The notes under the pieces are model-generated. The model was not told where the DNA came from, made no database searches, and saw nothing but the letters and a program-made list of their open reading frames with translations. From positions 1 through 26,747 of IMG/VR virus record IMGVR_UViG_3300031784_000170: a stretch of DNA of 26,747 nucleotides. One strand, 5' to 3'. Every line of letters begins with the position of its first letter. The first letter of the stretch is position 1. This document shows, piece by piece, positions 3,225 to 23,681 of this stretch. This DNA comes from a virus. A program made the translations under genes and the position numbers.

Positions 3225-4604
3225 ATGTCTGTTGAACTTATTGCCCGCACTGGTCGAGTACAAAGCTGGATCGATGATCCAACCTCACGACTGCCTGTGT
3301 CCTGCACAGTATTTGTCGTAGAAGATGAAATGGAGGGACCTAATGGAATCGAAGCATCCTGGCGTTTTGTTTCCCACGCTCTCCGCTACGGAGCTGGCGT
3401 GGCTGTCCATCTATCCAAGCTCCGACCCAAAGGAGCTGAAAATGGCAAGGGACTTGTGGCTAGCGGCCCAGTATCCTTTGGAAAGATCTACTCCACACTC
3501 AACGAAATCCTGAGGCGAGGAGGGGTCTACAAGAATGGGGCTGTGGTCCTACATCTGGATCTTAATCATCCTGATGTGCTTGAGTTTATTACTGCTGACC
3601 GTGCTGATCTACCTTGGGTCAAGCGTTGCGTCAACATTAACCGTCCGTGGTGGGAAGCTACCACTCCTGAAGTCAGGGAAGCACTCCTCCAGGGAATCCG
3701 TAAAGGAGACATCTGGCTCAACAAAACAAAGGTAGATCGTAATGGAAATCGTATCCGAGGAAACGTATGCTTGGAAGTCTATCTGCCCTCACGGGGAACC
3801 TGTCTACTTCAACATGTTAACCTCGGGGGATGTGAACTCCATGACATTCAGCGTGCGTTTGTCACAGGAATGTCCCAGCTGTGCGCCCTACACGGAAAAA
3901 CAAATGTTGGAGATAGCGGAGAGTACCTCCCTTCGGAGACAGATCGCCAAGTCGGTCTCGGACTTCTGGGTCTCGCAAATTGTCTTGCCAACCATGGAGT
4001 GACCTATAAGCAGTTTGGTGAGGCACTGAATGACATTCGCAATAATCGGATGGCTCAGACTCCTGCCCATATCCTTGCTGCTGAGATCAACGCTGGCATC
4101 ATGGCTGCTGCTCATGTAGCACGAGAAAACAACATGGATCGGGCGTTTGCTATTGCTCCTACAGCAAGCTGCAGCTACCGATACACCGATCTCAATGGCT
4201 ATACCACCTGCCCTGAGATTGCACCTCCTATTGCCCGTCAGGTGGACCGTGACAGCGGTACATTTGGTGTCCAGAGCTATGACTACGGTCCTGTTGAGAT
4301 CGCGTCAGAGGTTGGCTGGAAGGACTATAACGCAGTGGCAGATGGCATTGTATCTCTGCTTGATAAGACGGGACTTCTTCACGGCTATTCGTATAACTCG
4401 TGGTCTGATGTGATCACGTATGACGAGGAGTTCATTGAGGAGTGGCTGGATAGCCCCCAAACATCTCTTTACTACTCACTTCAGGTGATGGGAGACGTTC
4501 AGGATAAATCCAGTGCTTATGCTGCACTAGATGAAGCTGAGGTTGACGATTACTTGGAGTCTATCCTTAACGACCCTGCTCCCCAGTGTAATTGCGGCGA
4601 ATGA
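3225..4604 (+). CDS. nrdA: Class I ribonucleotide reductase, large (alpha) subunit
   Basis: This 459-residue protein reduces ribonucleotides to deoxyribonucleotides. Key residues line up with E. coli NrdA: C27 (first redox cysteine), N180-x-C182-x-E184 (thiyl radical site in NVCLE), C193 (second redox cysteine), PTASCS (312-317, phosphate loop), Y416-Y417 in SLYY (radical transfer pair) and a C-terminal CNC that can pass electrons from thioredoxin. At 459 residues it is much shorter than the roughly 760 of E. coli and has no N-terminal ATP cone, so allosteric activity control is probably absent. The start is ATG 3225, one base after the MazG-like stop; its end overlaps the beta subunit start as ATGA. 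The adjacent beta subunit argues against a cobalamin-dependent class II enzyme. Confidence 0.92.
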   Translation: MSVELIARTGRVQSWIDDPTSRLPVSCTVFVVEDEMEGPNGIEASWRFVSHALRYGAGVAVHLSKLRPKGAENGKGLVASGPVSFGKIYSTLNEILRRGGVYKNGAVVLHLDLNHPDVLEFITADRADLPWVKRCVNINRPWWEATTPEVREALLQGIRKGDIWLNKTKVDRNGNRIRGNVCLEVYLPSRGTCLLQHVNLGGCELHDIQRAFVTGMSQLCALHGKTNVGDSGEYLPSETDRQVGLGLLGLANCLANHGVTYKQFGEALNDIRNNRMAQTPAHILAAEINAGIMAAAHVARENNMDRAFAIAPTASCSYRYTDLNGYTTCPEIAPPIARQVDRDSGTFGVQSYDYGPVEIASEVGWKDYNAVADGIVSLLDKTGLLHGYSYNSWSDVITYDEEFIEEWLDSPQTSLYYSLQVMGDVQDKSSAYAALDEAEVDDYLESILNDPAPQCNCGE

Positions 4605-5311
4605 ACCCCTACGAAAAACTACAACAAAGAAAGAGGAAGTGGTCTCCTGTTCAGACCACAGCTGGCAAGCTGAATGAGGGTGCGGAGGAAGCTATCTTCC
4701 GTGCTCTTGCTATGCGTCATATGGAACTACCTGTAGGTGAATTTATTGAAGCATCGCTTTCTGAGATTCCAGTACTATCGCAAGACCTGCTCCGATCTAA
4801 CATCAAAGACGAAGAGAACCACGACTTGGCTCTCGGTTACATCGCCAATGCTATCGGCACTGATCCTAAAGCTGAGGAAGAAGCCAAGCGAATCCGAGCT
4901 GCGTGGGAAGCGCATCCTGATCACACGGTCCTCAAAGCACTTGTTGCCGAGCGTGCGTTGTTCTTCGTTCTACTCCCGTTCTTTCGATTTAATGGTGACG
5001 CTGGTCTCCGCACCGTCTCCGCTGACATCAGTCGAGATGAACAAGTCCATGTGGCTGCAAACTCTCTTGTCTGCAGGGAACTTGGACTCACCCCATCTCC
5101 AAGTCTCGACAAGCTCAGGAAGGCGACGATCAATTGGGTTATGACACCTTTGAAATCGTCCACTAACAAATATCTGGACAAAAAATTTTGGCTGGATGCT
5201 AGCGATCGTTTGATGTATGAGGGCAAGGCCCCTGAACTTTCTGACACCAAGCGAGCCCGAATGCCTGCCTTCTTTGAACATGCCAACCCAAATCTCCCTC
5301 AATACGCTTAG
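4601..5311 (+). CDS. nrdB: Class I ribonucleotide reductase, small (beta) subunit
   Basis: This 236-residue protein would hold the metal centre that starts the radical used by the alpha subunit. Metal ligands are visible as ExxH (E71-H74), E117 in AERALFF, and ExxH (E147-H150); an acidic residue in the 42-50 stretch may be the first ligand. E. coli NrdB has its radical tyrosine four residues after the first ligand histidine. Here that position is L78, and the nearest tyrosine is Y80, so a normal tyrosyl radical looks unlikely. The protein is shorter than typical NrdB (about 350-375). The C-terminal NPNLPQYA could serve the alpha-binding tail. ATG 4601 overlaps the nrdA stop, so the two are probably translationally coupled. 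Confidence 0.88.
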   Translation: MNPYEKLQQRKRKWSPVQTTAGKLNEGAEEAIFRALAMRHMELPVGEFIEASLSEIPVLSQDLLRSNIKDEENHDLALGYIANAIGTDPKAEEEAKRIRAAWEAHPDHTVLKALVAERALFFVLLPFFRFNGDAGLRTVSADISRDEQVHVAANSLVCRELGLTPSPSLDKLRKATINWVMTPLKSSTNKYLDKKFWLDASDRLMYEGKAPELSDTKRARMPAFFEHANPNLPQYA

Positions 5312-15665: not shown

Positions 15666-16125
15666 GTACATTCACCCGATCACGTTGGAGGCTGCCATAG
15701 AGGTGGCCTCTAACCTTCGTACAGACGACTACAGGGAGCTTGTAGAGGGTCACGGGGTAGATCCTATGGCAGTACTACCACAGACCGCTTCCTGGTCCTC
15801 TACGGTGTCATTCACGGTGCCAGACGGCAGGATTGCTGGACTGGCTGGTGTAGCAGATGGTAACTCCATATGGATGCTATGTACTCCAGCCGTGGAAGAC
15901 TTCCCCCACACCTTTGCAAGAGAAGCGAAGAGGTTCATTAACGCTAGAACAGAACCTCTGTTATGGAACATTGTGGACAAACGGAATACCGTCCACCTGA
16001 AACTACTTCAATTCCTTGGCTTCAAGTTTCTCCGTGAAATAAATCACGGTCCAAATAATCTAACCTTTATCGAATTTTGCCGTGTGCCTTCCAGCAATTG
16101 GAGCAATAGCAGGAGTAGCGTCTAG
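15658..16125 (+). CDS. Internal virion protein A-like (T7 gp13-like)
   Basis: The 155-residue protein is in the T7 gp13 position and has similar size (T7 138). Matching features are an N-terminal segment with RTDDYRELVEGHGVDP, the AGLAGVADGNSIWMLCTPAVEDFPHTFAREAKRF block, and the LWNIVDKRNTVHLKLLQFLGFKFL region, which resembles a GNAT-like fold used structurally. I chose GTG 15658 because the family start (MSKYIHPITLEAA) follows directly; TTG 15619 would lie inside tail tube B. T7 gp13 is needed for making infectious particles. Its end overlaps the next gene by 44 bases. Confidence 0.85.
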   Translation: MSKYIHPITLEAAIEVASNLRTDDYRELVEGHGVDPMAVLPQTASWSSTVSFTVPDGRIAGLAGVADGNSIWMLCTPAVEDFPHTFAREAKRFINARTEPLLWNIVDKRNTVHLKLLQFLGFKFLREINHGPNNLTFIEFCRVPSSNWSNSRSSV

Positions 16126-16870
16126 TGCAATGGGTGCTGTTGGAAGTTACCAACAGGGTCAAGCAGCCAACGCTAACGCTATTGCCAGCTACAAGCATCA
16201 AATTCAGATGCGTGAACATGATTGGCGTATGCAGCTCAGTACCTGGGCACATCGTCGATTAGAGTATAAGAATGAAGTACGCTCTAATGAAGAAGCTGCT
16301 AACCGTGGATATGCTGCTGAGCAGACACGGTTGAATGAGCAGTTCATGCAAGCTGCCTTCCAAAAACAAGACATGCTTGTTGGTCTACTTCAACAGCAAG
16401 GGTTGAACGGTGAACGAGTTGGTAACTCTGCTGCTAAGATCAACCAATCAATGCTATCTCAGTATGGTCGTAATAATGCAACGATTGCTGCCAACCTAAG
16501 TTCTGCTCGCAACGCTATGACAGAACGTCAGGAGGACATTCGTCGTCAGCTGCAAAGCGGTAACCAGAAGGCATACAGTCAGGTTGCTCTCAGACCTATT
16601 GCAGGTATTGCTCCTCAGAAGCCACAACTTAGTGATCCAACCATGGGTCTTGTTGGTGGTCTACTTGGTGCAGCAGCTGGTGGTATTGGTGCATTCAACT
16701 CATTGAAGGCTCCAAGTGCTGGTAACTTTGGTACCAATAACTGGGGAGGCTCTGGTGCATCTAACTTCCGACCTAATACAAACATTCCTGGCATTAACTA
16801 CGGTGGTGTTCCGTCCTTCGCAATGCCGAGTGGAGCAAGCTGGGCTAACTCCTTTAACTACCAAACCTAA
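16082..16870 (+). CDS. Internal virion protein B (T7 gp14-like)
   Basis: This 262-residue protein starts at GTG 16082, overlapping the gp13-like gene by 44 bases. It has an Ala/Gly-rich N-terminal helix (residues 1-25, CLPAIGAIAGVASSAMGAVGS) suited to membrane insertion, then a long charged coil with YKHQIQMREHDWRMQ and REDIRRQ-type stretches, and a Gly/Asn-rich tail that is probably disordered. T7 gp14 (196) is ejected and forms a pore in the outer membrane. The longer C-terminal tail is the main difference. The last base of its stop is the A of the next ATG. Confidence 0.88.
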   Translation: MCLPAIGAIAGVASSAMGAVGSYQQGQAANANAIASYKHQIQMREHDWRMQLSTWAHRRLEYKNEVRSNEEAANRGYAAEQTRLNEQFMQAAFQKQDMLVGLLQQQGLNGERVGNSAAKINQSMLSQYGRNNATIAANLSSARNAMTERQEDIRRQLQSGNQKAYSQVALRPIAGIAPQKPQLSDPTMGLVGGLLGAAAGGIGAFNSLKAPSAGNFGTNNWGGSGASNFRPNTNIPGINYGGVPSFAMPSGASWANSFNYQT

Positions 16871-19776
16871 TGGCAAACCAAGTACAATTTCAAGGGTCTG
16901 CCGAGTCTAAGGGCTTTGCTCCCATACAGCAGACTACCTATATTCCTAGGCTTCAGGAGAACCAAGAGCGTTTACTTGAAGCAGAACAAACTAACTTTGA
17001 ACTAAGCCAGACTTACGCTAGGACTAGGCAGTTTGTTGATAACAATAACCTTGACCAGCTAGCTAAGTTTTCTTCTACTCTGTCTGACACTCTCATGGCA
17101 GAAGCTAAAAAGAAGAACGAAGCTGATATGGAAGAAGGTGTAATGCAGGCCTATATGGATGGCATTAGCACTGAAGAGAATCTAGCTTTTGAGATTGCCG
17201 AAGGCTACCTCAAGGATAACGATGATCAGATCCAAGGTATTGGTGACGCGGCTCAAGCTACTGGTGCTCCATTTATGGGTGTCCAGAAGATCCGTGAACT
17301 GAGTGGATGGAAAGCTTATGGCTATGCCATGGGTATGGCTCAGAATGCTGGTCATGGTTATGGTGCTGCTATGGAGCAGGCATTAGCTGATGTCCCTGAA
17401 GATATCAGTGCTGCAGAGAAAGCTGTCTACCTTTCTAATGCTCGTGCTCAGTTCATGCGTCAGTCTGGTCTACTTGGTATGAACCCTGCTCTCCTTAACA
17501 AGTATGCCTTCCCAGGTATGAGGGAAGCAGACTCTGTTATTATGAACAAGTGGAGGAAGCAGGAAGAGGATACAATCAAAGCTCAATATATCGATGAAGC
17601 TCAAACAGTTCTTGGTGCTGATCCTGTAGGTAACTTCTCTAAAGCTATCGACATGATGGTACGAGGTGGTATCCCTAGGGGTAAGGCTCGTGCTGAGATA
17701 CTTGGTATGTTGGAGAGCACTGAAGACATTAACGCTGTTGGTAGCTCTGTGTCTTGGGATGGTAAGCTGACTTGGGAAGAGAAGTATCCTATTGAGTTTA
17801 GAAACGCTCGTCGTAAGGCTAACCAACAAGAGATCGATAACTACAACCTAGACAAGGCTCAGTCAGCCCTAGAAGGTAAGCAGTGGTTTGATCAACTGCA
17901 AGAGATGTGGGAGCAAGAACCTCCTACTGATGAAGAACTTGCAGCTGCTGAACGCTACATGTCTGATAACTTTGACTATGTTGACTCCAGACTTGGAGAG
18001 CGTTGGAAGAGTAGGACAACTGATGCTGAATCTAAGGAATACTATCGTGATCAATTTGATGCACTGGAGAGAGCAGGGCAGCTTACTGAAGCAATGCTCA
18101 ATGATCCAGCGGTACCGTCTGATGTACGTCGTAGCTTCTTAGCGCAAGCACAAGCACAAGATAAGGCTCGTAGAGATACACCTGAGTTTAAGCAGTATAC
18201 TAAAGAACTAGAAGAGACCCTGAAGCGAAATGCAAAGCAGGAGGGATTACAGCCTAGTGTTGCTGGTTTGGAACTTGCTATTGCTCGTGCCCAAGGTGAC
18301 TTCCAACGTCACTTCACTGCTGCCTTGCAGGGTGGTGCTTCGGCATCACAAGCTGCTGCTAATGCCTTTGCTCTTGTTAATGCCGAGATCCAACGAGGTG
18401 TTGGTGATCCAATCAATAAGATCGCAGGCACTGGTGTGTATGCCTTTGATGATACTGATGGGTTTACTGGTGTAATCCCTAAAGCGTTCCAAGGTAACTG
18501 GCAACGGCACAAAGCTAACATTGATAACATCCTCAGTGCTGGTTCTACAACCATAGATACACATGCTCTCATCCCTGAGGCAACCCTCAAAGAAGCGCTG
18601 AAAGGTATCAACAGTCCTAACTATCAATACCCAGCTATTGCTACTTACATCTCTGATCGCTTTGGTGGTAAAATCAGTCCCTGGGAAGTTATCAACCGTC
18701 AGCTCAAAGCTCGTGGTCTTGGTGAACTACCTACAAATCCAAACCTCCAACCCTCAACTCAAGGTATTCGACCTGAGATGATGAGGCTGCTACACTACAG
18801 ACCTTCCTATAATCGGGTTACTCGTGCATATGAAAGTGCTGGTAGCTTAGACACAGCGGCAGTTCCTTTCAGTGGAGTACTTTCACTGTTACGGAGTGGT
18901 GAAGGTGGTTGGGATTCAGCCAATCGTGGTAGGGCTGGGGATACGCCTGGTGGGGTTGCTGGTCTGAGCCGTAAGACGTTGGGTCAATGGAAACAACTAC
19001 AAGCACAAGGTTACTTTGCCTTGGGTGCTTATCAGTTTATTCCAGAAACATTGAGGCTGGCAGCTGGTGAAGCTGGTATCAATGACAGCACGGTGATGAC
19101 ACCTGCAGTGCAGGATCGCCTTGCAGTGCAGTTGATGATCGGAAGTAAGCGACCACGCCTTGCAGCATACCTGAGAGGTCAGAACGACGACATCGGTGCA
19201 GCGTTGGATGATCTAGCGTTGGAGTGGGCATCAGTTCACACAGCCAGAGGAGGTACAGCCTATGCTGGTATCGGTGGTAACGCTGCTTCGATCTCACGCA
19301 ACAGTGCAGCACAACAACTGCAACGTGCAAAACAACTGTTCCTTAGTGGTAGTGGTGGTAGTAATACTAGTCCTTGGAGGAACCCTGCTCTATTGAATCC
19401 TAGGGTTGCTTACATCACAGGAAACATTGGTCCTGGATCAACTGGGCCGCACCTTGATGTCAAACGCACCGACCGTGGTCGTTTCTCTGAGAATGCTCTT
19501 GACAGGTATGTAGAAATTGATGACCCTCAGTTTGGTCGTATCTCTCCTGGTGATCTAAGGAGGAAGCTTCCTGGTCGTGGTGACGACTTTGATGGGCACG
19601 TAGCTAGAAATTCACACGGTATTGATTACCCAACAGCTAGTGGTTCTAGGGTCTACCTTAAAGGCGGTGCCAAAGTGATAGCTGCTCACGACTCTGGTGA
19701 TGGCAACGGTGATTTAGTCACGATTCAACTGCCTAACGGGCAGAAGTATACATTCTTACACGGTAGAAAAGCGTAA
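16870..19776 (+). CDS. Internal virion protein C (T7 gp15-like) with lysozyme-like and M23-like C-terminal domains
   Basis: At 968 residues it is longer than T7 gp15 (747), and the first 640 residues are helical and typical of the internal core. From about 655 to 815 is a lysozyme-like domain with LLRSGEGGW (E678 likely catalytic), NRGRAGDTPGG, and FALGAYQFIPETL. The last part resembles M23 LytM-type peptidase in reversed order: STGPHLDV (H861, D863) precedes SHGIDY (H916, D919), GSRVYLKGGAKVIA and TFLHG (H964). In T7 gp16 carries the transglycosylase, so wall-degrading function has moved here. The protein probably opens the wall during DNA ejection. Its stop shares one base with the gp16-like start. 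Confidence 0.88.
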   Translation: MANQVQFQGSAESKGFAPIQQTTYIPRLQENQERLLEAEQTNFELSQTYARTRQFVDNNNLDQLAKFSSTLSDTLMAEAKKKNEADMEEGVMQAYMDGISTEENLAFEIAEGYLKDNDDQIQGIGDAAQATGAPFMGVQKIRELSGWKAYGYAMGMAQNAGHGYGAAMEQALADVPEDISAAEKAVYLSNARAQFMRQSGLLGMNPALLNKYAFPGMREADSVIMNKWRKQEEDTIKAQYIDEAQTVLGADPVGNFSKAIDMMVRGGIPRGKARAEILGMLESTEDINAVGSSVSWDGKLTWEEKYPIEFRNARRKANQQEIDNYNLDKAQSALEGKQWFDQLQEMWEQEPPTDEELAAAERYMSDNFDYVDSRLGERWKSRTTDAESKEYYRDQFDALERAGQLTEAMLNDPAVPSDVRRSFLAQAQAQDKARRDTPEFKQYTKELEETLKRNAKQEGLQPSVAGLELAIARAQGDFQRHFTAALQGGASASQAAANAFALVNAEIQRGVGDPINKIAGTGVYAFDDTDGFTGVIPKAFQGNWQRHKANIDNILSAGSTTIDTHALIPEATLKEALKGINSPNYQYPAIATYISDRFGGKISPWEVINRQLKARGLGELPTNPNLQPSTQGIRPEMMRLLHYRPSYNRVTRAYESAGSLDTAAVPFSGVLSLLRSGEGGWDSANRGRAGDTPGGVAGLSRKTLGQWKQLQAQGYFALGAYQFIPETLRLAAGEAGINDSTVMTPAVQDRLAVQLMIGSKRPRLAAYLRGQNDDIGAALDDLALEWASVHTARGGTAYAGIGGNAASISRNSAAQQLQRAKQLFLSGSGGSNTSPWRNPALLNPRVAYITGNIGPGSTGPHLDVKRTDRGRFSENALDRYVEIDDPQFGRISPGDLRRKLPGRGDDFDGHVARNSHGIDYPTASGSRVYLKGGAKVIAAHDSGDGNGDLVTIQLPNGQKYTFLHGRKA

Positions 19777-22700
19777 TGGGTTACGATCCAATCGGCAACA
19801 TGGCCGCTGGTACAACTCAAGCTTCCCTAGACCCCGTATTACAGCAAGAGGCTTACGAGTCTAATAAGCTAATGGTGGCTGAGGAAGAGGAGCGTAAGCG
19901 GCAGCAGCAACAAATGCAAGAGCAACAAGCACAAGCTGAAGCTCAAGCTAAACAAGAACAGGAAGCTAAGTCTGCTAACCCTGTAGGTGAAGTAGGGGCT
20001 GCCGTTGTTGGTGGCCTTATAGACTTTGCTGATGATGTAGGTGAACTGGCTGGTACCATCACTGGCAATAGTTGGGAAGCTATCCCTGAAGATTGGGGTC
20101 CTCAGAATAAAACACAATGGGGTAAAGGCCTTCGTGCTGTTGTCTCTTTTGTTGGACCTACGATTGGTGTAGGTAGTCTTACTAAAGCAGGTATTCTGCA
20201 AATTACAAAACTTGCTAAGCTTGGTACCGCATCCAAAGCTGTCAGTATGCTTGGCACTATGGGTGTTGATATGGCAGCTGGTACTGCTGTAGATGCAATC
20301 AACAGTCACTCTACAGGTGATAACCTGATGAGGTTCCTTAAGGATAATGTTCCTTCTGCTGTTGGTTGGCTGCCTGATGACTGGGCTACTCTGGATACGG
20401 ATAGCCCAGATGTCAAGCGTAATAAGAACATCATGGAAGGAGCAGGGTTAGGTCTTCTAGCGTCTGCTCTGGAGGGTGGTATTGCCTTTGCAAGGAGTCT
20501 TAAGGGTTTACCTCCTGGAGTCACCTTCAAGCCTAAGGATGATGCTGCTAAGGCGGCATTCAATAAGATCACAAACAAGTCACCTATGACTCGTTCTACT
20601 CATCCTCTTATTGACCGCATCCTAAAGGATGAAAACTATAGGGCACAGCATGTGGATGAGATGGCGTTAGTTGATCTTAACCAAGCTGGTGGGATTGACT
20701 ACGTTGATCGCTACATGCCAAGCCTGCACAGTAAAGTCTCTGATGATTATGAGATCCTGCCCTATGCTGTGAGACCTGATGCTGTCCCACAGATGATGGT
20801 AGATGCAGCTCGTATTCAAGACGACATTGGCACCTACTATGGTCGTATGTCAAAGTTCCATACTGATGCAGCTCTTCGGTCTATGGACCTAGATGACATT
20901 GTTGGTCGTCGATTGGTGAAGGATCTGGATAAGCGTACCTTTGAACTTGGTAACTTTGAGGCTAAACTTCCTAACGGTAGGATGATGAATAGTAAGGAAC
21001 TACTCAAGTCTGGTGATGAACTAGCTTTGAAGATCCTTGATCCTCGTCTTGATAAGGAAGCACTGAAGAAGGTCTTTGATGGTTATCGGGACTCTACTAA
21101 GATTGCACTTAATACTCCGTCACTGCAAACACTGAACTCTGAGGCATCAGCTGCTGCTAAGTCAGCTCTAACTGAGCTACAGAGCCTGTATCGTGAAATC
21201 CTCAGTGGTGATACTGCTAGGGCTTCTGCTTACCTGCAGACGAGTCTTGCTGGTGAAGTAGCTGATGCTTCAACTGCAGCAAGGGTAATGGGTGAAGCAG
21301 TTGATACCACCTACATGTATGAGCGTATCCTGGATAAGATGGAGCTGCTCTGGTATGAGACTGATATGTCCAGTTCTATTGCTGGTTGGAAGCTCAATAA
21401 TGAGAAGATATGGCAAGAGGCTATCAAGGCACGAAACTCTAACCCTAGCGAGTTGAAGTCATTTGCTAGTGAAGCACTGGGTAAATTCCGTCTTAACAAC
21501 AAAACAAAAGCTCAGCAGAACAGAACCTTCTGGTCTTCCCTGAAGCAAATGAACAGTGAAAACCCTAAGTACATCGAACCTTTGATTCGTGCTTATGAGT
21601 TGACTGATGGTAATGTCAATGACATCTACAAACTCAACAACTACATGAAGAATGTCTTAGGAGTGATCAACAAGGGTTTCCTTGATGGTCAACCTGAGAT
21701 TCCTAGTCAAGTTGTTCAGGGTATGTGGGCTACCTTCTACAACGCTAAGCTCTCCTCACTGCTCACTCCTGTTAAGGCAATCGCTAACAACTTCGCTCTG
21801 CTACTGATGAAGCCTATGAACGTGGCTTTAGGTGCAGGACTGCGTGGTGATTGGCATACGATCCATAGGGCATGGGCTCAGTATGCTACTCATATGGATA
21901 CGACTATGAGGGCATCTGGTGACTATATGTCACAGACGTTTAAGCGTATTGCTGCTGATCCTACTATCACTCAACGAGCTGACTTCAAGACAGTTAACAA
22001 TGAGATGATTACACTGGCTAGGGAGTTTGCAGCTGCTGAAGCTGCTAAGGGTAACTACGGTGCTTCCTTTAAGGTTCAGTGGATTGACACCATGGAGAAG
22101 ATCAACAACCATCCGTGGGTTCGTTACTCAATGAACTTCATGGAAGCTGGTGATGCCTTCGTTAAGTCAGCTATTGGTATGGCTGAAGCTCGTGGTCAAG
22201 CCTATGACATCCTACTTCGTGATGGACGTAAGATTACAGCTGATGCACTTCAGGAAGTAGCTAACGACATCTATAAGAAGATGTTTGATGGCAATGGTCT
22301 GATCACTGATGAAGCTGTTACTTATGCTTCCCGTGAGATATCAATGAACTTGGATAATGAGTTTGCTTCAGGTCTTGATGACCTACTGAAGAAGGCTCCT
22401 ATCCTTAAGACTGTAGTCTTGTTCCCTAGGACTTCAGTTAACGTTCTTGACTTCGTTCATAAACACTCGCCTCTTTCTGTCTTCATTGGTGAAGCTCAGA
22501 AAGTGAAGGAGATTGATAATCTCATTAAGAACTCAGGTCAGTTTGATGAAGCTGCTAGGTTCCTAGCTACTAAAGGTATTAACCCTAGTGAGGACGGTAT
22601 TGAGCAGGCATGGAAGACTTTCCGTTCAGAGACTGAAGGTCGTGTAGCAATGGGCACCATGATCGTTACTATGGGTGGTTGGGCGTTTGCCTCAGGTAAC

Positions 22701-23681
22701 CTAACTGGTAATGGTAATTACGATAAACAAGTCAACCGATTCCAACAGAACGCAGGAGAGAAGCCTCTAAGGTCTTGGAGGGGCATTGATGGTAAGTGGC
22801 GTAGTTATGACGGCATTGAACCTATAGCCACCTTCCTGGCGCTTACAGCGGACATTCTGGAGAACTTTAACACTCTTGGTTCTACAGCTAGTGAACAGAT
22901 GCTGCAGAAGCTTGGCTATGCAGTCTCTATGAACATGACGAACAAGTCCTTCCTGCAAGGTCTACAGCCTATCTCTGATCTTCTTAGTGGTCAACCTGCT
23001 GCACTTAGTCGGTGGGCATCTAACACTGCTAGTGTTGGTCTCTTCAATCAGATGTCTAGGATCATGATGCCTGGACTTCGTGAAGTTGATACTGACCTCC
23101 AATCAATGCTCCGCAATAAGTGGAACATCTTGGATGCTGCTGGTATTGGTAATGCTTTGCCTAAAGCGTATGATTTCATTGATGGTTCTGTGGTTGGAGA
23201 TAATGACCCAATTACTAACTTCCTGAATAACACACTACCGTTTAAGACGAACTCTGATCCATCTCCTGTTAAGCAGTTCCTCATTGATACTGAGTTTGAT
23301 GTTCAACCTGCTTTGAAGACATCACTAAATGGGGTGAAGTACAACGCTGAACAACGATCACGTCTTGCTCAAATTATGGGTGAATCTGGTCACTTCCGTA
23401 CAGGTCTTGAGTTGTTGATGAAAGATAAACGTGTAAAGGACGATCTAATCAACATTAGAAAGGGTAGGGAGAGTGGCGTCACACAAGAGATGGCAGACCT
23501 TACTAACTCATACACCCACATCCGTATTAAGGCTCTACTGACTGCTTCATTGAACCTTGCTAAGCGTCAGCTGGCAGAAGAGATGCCTGATATTAGAGAG
23601 TCTGAATTGAGGGCTAAGCGTACCCGTCAAGCACAACGCACCAGTAATTATGGTGATGTGTTACAACTACAGAACAAATAA
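19776..23681 (+). CDS. Internal virion protein D (T7 gp16-like)
   Basis: This 1301-residue protein matches T7 gp16 (1318) in length and position. In T7, gp16 is ejected and spans the inner membrane to help pull in DNA. The N-terminus has a Gln/Glu/Ala-rich coil (residues 36-66) followed by a Gly/Val-rich segment, with no transglycosylase domain like that of T7 gp16. Hydrophobic stretches later include GVDMAAGTAVDA and IVTMGGWAFASGNLTGNG. The large helical body has repeated long helices. The gene ends directly before the tail fibre. Loss of the lysozyme domain here is balanced by its presence on the gp15-like protein. Confidence 0.92.
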   Translation: MGYDPIGNMAAGTTQASLDPVLQQEAYESNKLMVAEEEERKRQQQQMQEQQAQAEAQAKQEQEAKSANPVGEVGAAVVGGLIDFADDVGELAGTITGNSWEAIPEDWGPQNKTQWGKGLRAVVSFVGPTIGVGSLTKAGILQITKLAKLGTASKAVSMLGTMGVDMAAGTAVDAINSHSTGDNLMRFLKDNVPSAVGWLPDDWATLDTDSPDVKRNKNIMEGAGLGLLASALEGGIAFARSLKGLPPGVTFKPKDDAAKAAFNKITNKSPMTRSTHPLIDRILKDENYRAQHVDEMALVDLNQAGGIDYVDRYMPSLHSKVSDDYEILPYAVRPDAVPQMMVDAARIQDDIGTYYGRMSKFHTDAALRSMDLDDIVGRRLVKDLDKRTFELGNFEAKLPNGRMMNSKELLKSGDELALKILDPRLDKEALKKVFDGYRDSTKIALNTPSLQTLNSEASAAAKSALTELQSLYREILSGDTARASAYLQTSLAGEVADASTAARVMGEAVDTTYMYERILDKMELLWYETDMSSSIAGWKLNNEKIWQEAIKARNSNPSELKSFASEALGKFRLNNKTKAQQNRTFWSSLKQMNSENPKYIEPLIRAYELTDGNVNDIYKLNNYMKNVLGVINKGFLDGQPEIPSQVVQGMWATFYNAKLSSLLTPVKAIANNFALLLMKPMNVALGAGLRGDWHTIHRAWAQYATHMDTTMRASGDYMSQTFKRIAADPTITQRADFKTVNNEMITLAREFAAAEAAKGNYGASFKVQWIDTMEKINNHPWVRYSMNFMEAGDAFVKSAIGMAEARGQAYDILLRDGRKITADALQEVANDIYKKMFDGNGLITDEAVTYASREISMNLDNEFASGLDDLLKKAPILKTVVLFPRTSVNVLDFVHKHSPLSVFIGEAQKVKEIDNLIKNSGQFDEAARFLATKGINPSEDGIEQAWKTFRSETEGRVAMGTMIVTMGGWAFASGNLTGNGNYDKQVNRFQQNAGEKPLRSWRGIDGKWRSYDGIEPIATFLALTADILENFNTLGSTASEQMLQKLGYAVSMNMTNKSFLQGLQPISDLLSGQPAALSRWASNTASVGLFNQMSRIMMPGLREVDTDLQSMLRNKWNILDAAGIGNALPKAYDFIDGSVVGDNDPITNFLNNTLPFKTNSDPSPVKQFLIDTEFDVQPALKTSLNGVKYNAEQRSRLAQIMGESGHFRTGLELLMKDKRVKDDLINIRKGRESGVTQEMADLTNSYTHIRIKALLTASLNLAKRQLAEEMPDIRESELRAKRTRQAQRTSNYGDVLQLQNK

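Follow-up and report, generated by a model that had tools for sequence, protein, structure and literature searches.

The gp15-like gene and its domain layout

The window, that is the whole stretch of viral DNA that was analysed (26,747 nucleotides), contains a gene for a protein of 968 amino acids that can be recognized as a gp15-like internal virion protein. Specifically, the gene lies between a gp14-like and a gp16-like gene, and its product is similar to cyanophage gp15, as it matches phrog_24152 (1.3e-55) and, by tblastn, resembles the proteins encoded at the gp15 position in T7-like cyanophages. The genes, domains and motifs considered here are the following:

16082..16870, + strand: gp14-like internal virion protein (Pfam T7_gp14, 4.4e-11)
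16870..19776, + strand: gp15-like internal virion (ejection) protein, 968 aa (open reading frame, neighbors and similarity)
18862..19359, + strand: lambda-lysozyme-type domain, residues 665-830, with a candidate catalytic Glu678 in SGEGG
18901-18903, + strand: Glu678 of SGEGG
19399..19773, + strand: circularly permuted M23-like domain, residues 844-968 (AlphaFold, doubled-profile test and 168 relatives)
19402..19467, + strand: C-terminal half of canonical M23, placed first (strand 845-850 and STGPHLDVKR)
19438-19464, + strand: STGPHLDVK, residues 857-865
19468..19602, + strand: connecting segment between the M23 halves, with an invariant His910 (nt 19597-19599) and two modelled helices
19603..19773, + strand: N-terminal half of canonical M23, placed last (SHGID through FLHG)
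19612-19626, + strand: SHGID, residues 915-919
19750-19764, + strand: TFLHG, residues 961-965
19776..23681, + strand: gp16-like internal virion protein (phrog_6651, 3.2e-240)

Along the gp15-like protein, the motifs therefore follow one another in the order SGEGG, STGPHLDVK, SHGID and TFLHG.

A lysozyme-type domain on the gp15-like protein

The domain preceding the permuted M23-like domain has no match in Pfam. In a profile search its best matches are two structures of lambda lysozyme (3d3d and 1am7, E 0.025), and AlphaFold models residues 665-830 with a pLDDT of 90.2 and a pTM of 0.86. When the model is compared with solved structures by VIA-align, a Z of 12.9 is obtained with the baseplate initiator of cyanophage A-1(L) (8kea), while lambda lysozyme scores 10.8 (3d3d, over 130 residues) and 9.6 (1am7) and the next lysozyme-like rows score 5.6. 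The predicted model thus has the lambda lysozyme fold (GH104-type), and the preliminary description, which had proposed a lysozyme-like domain with E678 in SGEGG, is made more precise by profile, AlphaFold and VIA-align alike. Lambda lysozyme R, with which the front domain shares the paired motifs AGRYQ/LGAYQ and SEG/SGEG, is an endolysin, whereas the copy in the window is a module of an internal virion protein. Glu678, the candidate catalytic residue, is kept in most of 13 relatives and is absent in one of them (L460). In addition, several gp15-like proteins (L443-L448) carry the lysozyme domain of the window without the M23-like domain.

Evidence for a circularly permuted M23 domain

Among peptidoglycan endopeptidases, M23 enzymes form one of the major groups. 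Because profile libraries take them to run from Hx3D to HxH, a permuted member shows up as a half-match or is overlooked. In the gp15-like protein, Pfam Peptidase_M23 covers residues 914-965 only, corresponding to positions 2-52 of the 96 of the profile, and its score stays below the cut-off of 28.7 bits both for the whole window (13.7) and for the domain alone (18.5). A half-match to the first part of the profile is what a permuted domain would give. Moreover, a profile search of the PDB returns LytM as the best solved relative, aligned in two out-of-order pieces (E 0.076).

The comparison was extended with a canonical profile made from 63 canonical-order phage M23 domains, of which a doubled copy served for the permutation test. 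Against the single profile, hhalign produces two out-of-order pieces (82-132 onto 14-66 and 15-35 onto 82-101, score 32.9), whereas against the doubled profile it produces one alignment, 15-132 onto 82-179, that runs across the junction with a score of 42.7 (88.8%). None of 200 controls with shuffled N-half columns gained as much (best 9.3, compared with 9.8 for the real profile). In other words, when order is set aside, homology to the M23 core extends over both halves. For the cyanophage family this gain is seen in the profile-profile comparison only, as HMMER searches with the doubled profile against single sequences gave none. Canonical M23 domains show zero gain. Passing from the single to the doubled profile, the score rises from 27.9 to 52.3 bits for the permuted domain of S-TIM54 and from 61.4 to 77.9 for the S-EIVl-like domains, and two domains from Acinetobacter and Moraxella phages gain 7.6 and 14.8 bits. 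In S-TIM54, Pfam M23 also matches twice, each time significantly on its own, with the pieces in reversed order (1.3e-4 and 3e-5), and the Acinetobacter permuted domain aligns to the cyanophage permuted family (88.5%).

Residues 844-968 are predicted by AlphaFold as a compact single-chain fold (pLDDT 89.5, pTM 0.83) in which the seven expected strands are found, and their order is that of LytM after rotation. The likeness to M23 (LytM, lysostaphin; PF01551) includes the STGPHx strand, the GxD strand and the His that ends the fifth strand. The differences, besides the permuted order, consist of an insert of about 45 residues that joins the halves and of the absence of the segment that lies between the canonical YxH and GQxIG strands. 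The structure prediction and search suggested in the preliminary description did not lead to the refutation that it had specified (absence of the LytM fold), but they fall short of a clean structural confirmation. The model has the strand order of a permuted LytM, while Foldseek against the PDB, and VIA-align on its matches, returned no M23 chain. Both follow chain order and are blind to a permuted fold, and this result is therefore not counted for or against M23. In the BFVD, the matches of the model are mostly relatives (P60, an uncultured tape measure protein, S-TIM5 and another entry).

These searches would fit a phage beta-domain in which STGPHL, HGID and FLHG occur by coincidence, as the highest-scoring structures in VIA-align are lectins, with Z no higher than 4.2. 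The M23 signals in Pfam and against LytM are, in addition, individually weak. The doubled-profile alignment and its shuffled controls make such a coincidence very improbable, as do the permuted domains of S-TIM54 and Acinetobacter, which bridge to canonical M23 and, in the latter case, also to the cyanophage family. By order, ligands and profile score the domain falls outside M23 as commonly defined, the canonical succession Hx3D ... H ... HxH being replaced here by HxD ... SHxxD ... H; its descent from M23 is supported.

Distribution of the permuted order

Scanning viral contigs with an alignment of six C-terminal domains recovered 168 relatives of the permuted domain, of which 67 distinct domains were examined and a non-redundant set of 38 was aligned. 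All 38 keep the permuted order, which, together with the number of relatives found, means that the order is not due to chance. The M23-like pieces in reversed order quoted by the preliminary description are thus present as it gave them, and relatives, doubled profile and modelled strand order agree on their arrangement. HLD (or HVD) is kept even in relatives that have lost STG, and the isolates S-CBP1, P60 and DSL-LC07 share the C-terminal permuted domain.

Two more phage families are permuted, namely one in the tape measure proteins of Acinetobacter and Moraxella phages and one typified by S-EIVl, and the same order is seen in S-TIM54. The permuted M23-like arrangement is genuine and occurs across many phages. 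Both additional families resemble the window in the permuted order and in HLD for HLH, and differ from it in having kept the canonical His of HxGxD and in their context, which is a tape measure protein or, for S-EIVl, a short ORF instead of gp15. Examples of the former are Moraxella Mcat20 and Acinetobacter Ab105-2phi (L009, L010), and of the latter a series of ORFs that start with the permuted domain (S-EIVl, L011:3944-4690, and L272-L351); the S-EIVl ORF at 3944-4690 is annotated as 'peptidase M23 family'. In a scan of genomes, Acinetobacter alone had permuted copies among the loci kept, the remainder being canonical M23, and these copies are probably prophages.

In S-TIM54 (L008:2938-3285), a permuted M23 in which all canonical ligands are kept stands behind a stretch that looks M23-like by eye, and this arrangement may represent a stage on the way from duplication to loss. 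Relatives of S-TIM54 from the contig scan were considered as further permuted domains and rejected, their order being canonical. The S-TIM54 stretch is what duplication followed by loss would leave, and T7 gp15 is oligomeric (PMC8954989); on these grounds, the two pieces in the window might be regarded as half-domains, either left over from M23 copies once arranged in tandem or pairing up across neighboring gp15 subunits to form a complete domain. We consider this unlikely, as AlphaFold predicts one compact fold from a single chain, and three families as well as the short stand-alone ORF of S-EIVl show the same order and linker.

Residues at the canonical M23 metal-site positions

In canonical M23 enzymes, zinc is bound by the His and Asp of Hx3D and by the second His of HxH, while water is activated by the first His of HxH and by one further His (PMC9662197). 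The subfamily of the window has Ser, Asp and Asp in place of the His, Asp and His that bind zinc. Specifically, the first zinc His is replaced by Ser (Ser915 here) in 56/56 distinct relatives, a position at which His is found in 56/57 domains of the canonical phage set, and the second His of HxH is replaced by Asp (Asp863 here) in 38/38 aligned relatives. The replacement of zinc ligands is therefore stronger than the preliminary description had stated. Its reading of the His of SHGID as the usual His of HxGxD has to be corrected, since the position four residues before the Asp is Ser915 and the His comes one residue later. This His916 (54/56 relatives; Phe in P60 and Tyr in L047) was tried as the canonical zinc ligand and ruled out, being one residue off by both the LytM alignment and residue counts.

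The two water-activating His (His861 and His964) are present in 38/38 relatives, and Asp919, at the canonical Asp zinc position, is invariant among the aligned relatives, as are Lys865, His910 and Arg913. Taken together, the five site positions H, D, S, D and H are all invariant in 38/38, with a probability of about 4e-5 given 20 invariant columns out of 138. The S-EIVl-like domains have His, Asp and Asp together with both catalytic His, invariant in 32/32 non-redundant domains, and S-TIM54 retains His, Asp and His. Among canonical bacterial M23 domains picked by their first half, HxH is present in 63/65 and HCD in the other two, which come from MAGs of Eubacteriales and Ruminococcaceae and have the canonical order (L376, L428).

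It is possible, though we do not favor it, that the permuted domain is a pseudoenzyme, no longer binding zinc or cleaving peptides, that serves to hold the peptides of peptidoglycan or to cap gp15 structurally while the lysozyme domain cuts. Throughout the subfamily, every relative has replacements at two of the three zinc positions, P60 and L047 are also devoid of His916, degenerate LytM factors have a precedent in EnvC (PMC9662197), and the equivalent slot of S-CBP4 gp15 holds a degenerate M23 of canonical order. Such a loss is less easily reconciled with the invariance of the two water-activating His, Asp863, Asp919, Lys865, His910 and Arg913 at a domain identity of only about 50%, and with the H-D-D version being invariant in all of the S-EIVl-type domains. 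The invariance of the altered residues across the family argues against simple decay; that is, judging from the alignments, the M23 site of the permuted family is remodelled and conserved. Of the suggestion that the peptidase may be altered or inactive, the alteration of the ligands stands, while these same residues count against inactivation by simple decay. In our estimation there is about an even chance that the metal site has been rebuilt and the hydrolase function kept, which is somewhat likelier than a domain that only binds.

gp15 as a slot for wall modules

T7 has an SLT domain on gp16 and none on gp15. The preliminary description had noted that the single T7 transglycosylase resides on gp16 and that the gp16-like protein of the window has none, in agreement with the Pfam scan of this protein (19776..23681), in which no wall-degrading domain was found; the same holds for wall domains in all eight cyanophage gp16 proteins scanned, that of the window included. 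The gp15 proteins of these phages carry instead a variety of modules: a glucosaminidase and a canonical M23 with all ligands in S-SRP01, an SLT and a degenerate canonical-order M23 in S-CBP4, Hydrolase_2 in S-B28, S-SBP1 and S-RIP2, and SLT_3 in S-CBP3, while no recognized wall domain was found in P-SSP3, P-SSP7 and P-SSP10. S-SRP01 and S-CBP4 use the genome slot of the window with a glycosidase followed by M23, but the order of their M23 is canonical, with full ligands in the former and degenerate in the latter, whereas in the window the order is permuted and the ligands are altered. Upstream of the permuted domain, the module is a glucosaminidase in 16/35 relatives and an SLT in 7/35, the others having another module or an unrecognized stretch; P60 gives a weak tail-lysozyme match in this position. 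In a quick tree of gp16, phages that carry the permuted domain are interspersed with those that have other gp15 modules, a pattern that loss or exchange of modules would produce. A single old origin of the permuted domain, with losses, is also conceivable. Overall, the comparison points to gp15 of T7-like cyanophages as a slot in which wall modules are exchanged.

Some of these features have precedents. The virion protein gp13 of phi29 also carries a lysozyme, so that lysozyme and M23 are on one virion protein as in the window, but it is a tail-tip protein and its M23 is canonical. The M23 of phi29 gp13 is used at entry (PMC9662197). In K1E and K1-5, the wall enzyme found on gp16 in T7 is borne by gp35, a gp15 homologue, and hydrolase domains have been described to move between gp16 and gp15 (PMC8954989); gp35 resembles the window in this respect, but no M23 is reported there. 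Hence, neither the placement of a wall enzyme on gp15 rather than gp16 nor the pairing of two wall activities in a single virion protein is new. Two comparative papers on cyanopodovirus genomes describe no wall domains on the core proteins, and a limited literature search found no report of a permuted M23/LytM domain.

A possible role at genome entry

The reading that we consider probable is that the C-terminal 125 residues or so are a circularly permuted M23 (LytM-type) domain behind a lambda-lysozyme-type domain, and that both act on peptidoglycan at entry. The chain would enter the fold at the HxH strand, cross the inserted linker and end at the strand with the second catalytic His. By analogy with T7, gp15 would be ejected into the periplasm on infection, where both modules may act on the peptidoglycan in the path of the channel: the lysozyme domain would attack glycan strands, and the permuted domain would work on, or at, peptide stems, possibly by cleaving them. 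Two putative wall modules on one protein follow from the sequence and the predicted fold, and the T7 model suggests that this protein is ejected. The proposal that this combination suits the thicker cyanobacterial wall is unsupported, as gp15 of P-SSP7, P-SSP3 and P-SSP10 lacks a recognized wall domain and the permuted M23 also occurs in phages of Acinetobacter and Moraxella.

More tentatively, and a little short of an even chance, phages might hold a separate permuted M23 branch with a rebuilt metal site (H-D-D, or S-D-D and an extra His in T7-like cyanophages), which would be used at genome entry and whose members would trade places, at the end of gp15, with modules of canonical M23, glucosaminidase, SLT and lysozyme type. 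A natural permutation accompanied by a conserved ligand change represents a direct test of the requirements of the M23 site, and the gp15 exchange slot is one possible determinant of how T7-like cyanophages cross the walls of their hosts.

Two further observations concern the modules next to these domains. In eight relatives (L080, L091, L042, L048, L053, L062, L089 and L047), the stretch before the permuted domain is dissimilar to that of the main glycosidase-bearing group. In addition, the gp15-like protein of S-CBP3 (L441:1211-4183) has, after SLT_3, a C-terminal SYHYYGQAFDV, which we take to resemble an M15 peptidase motif.
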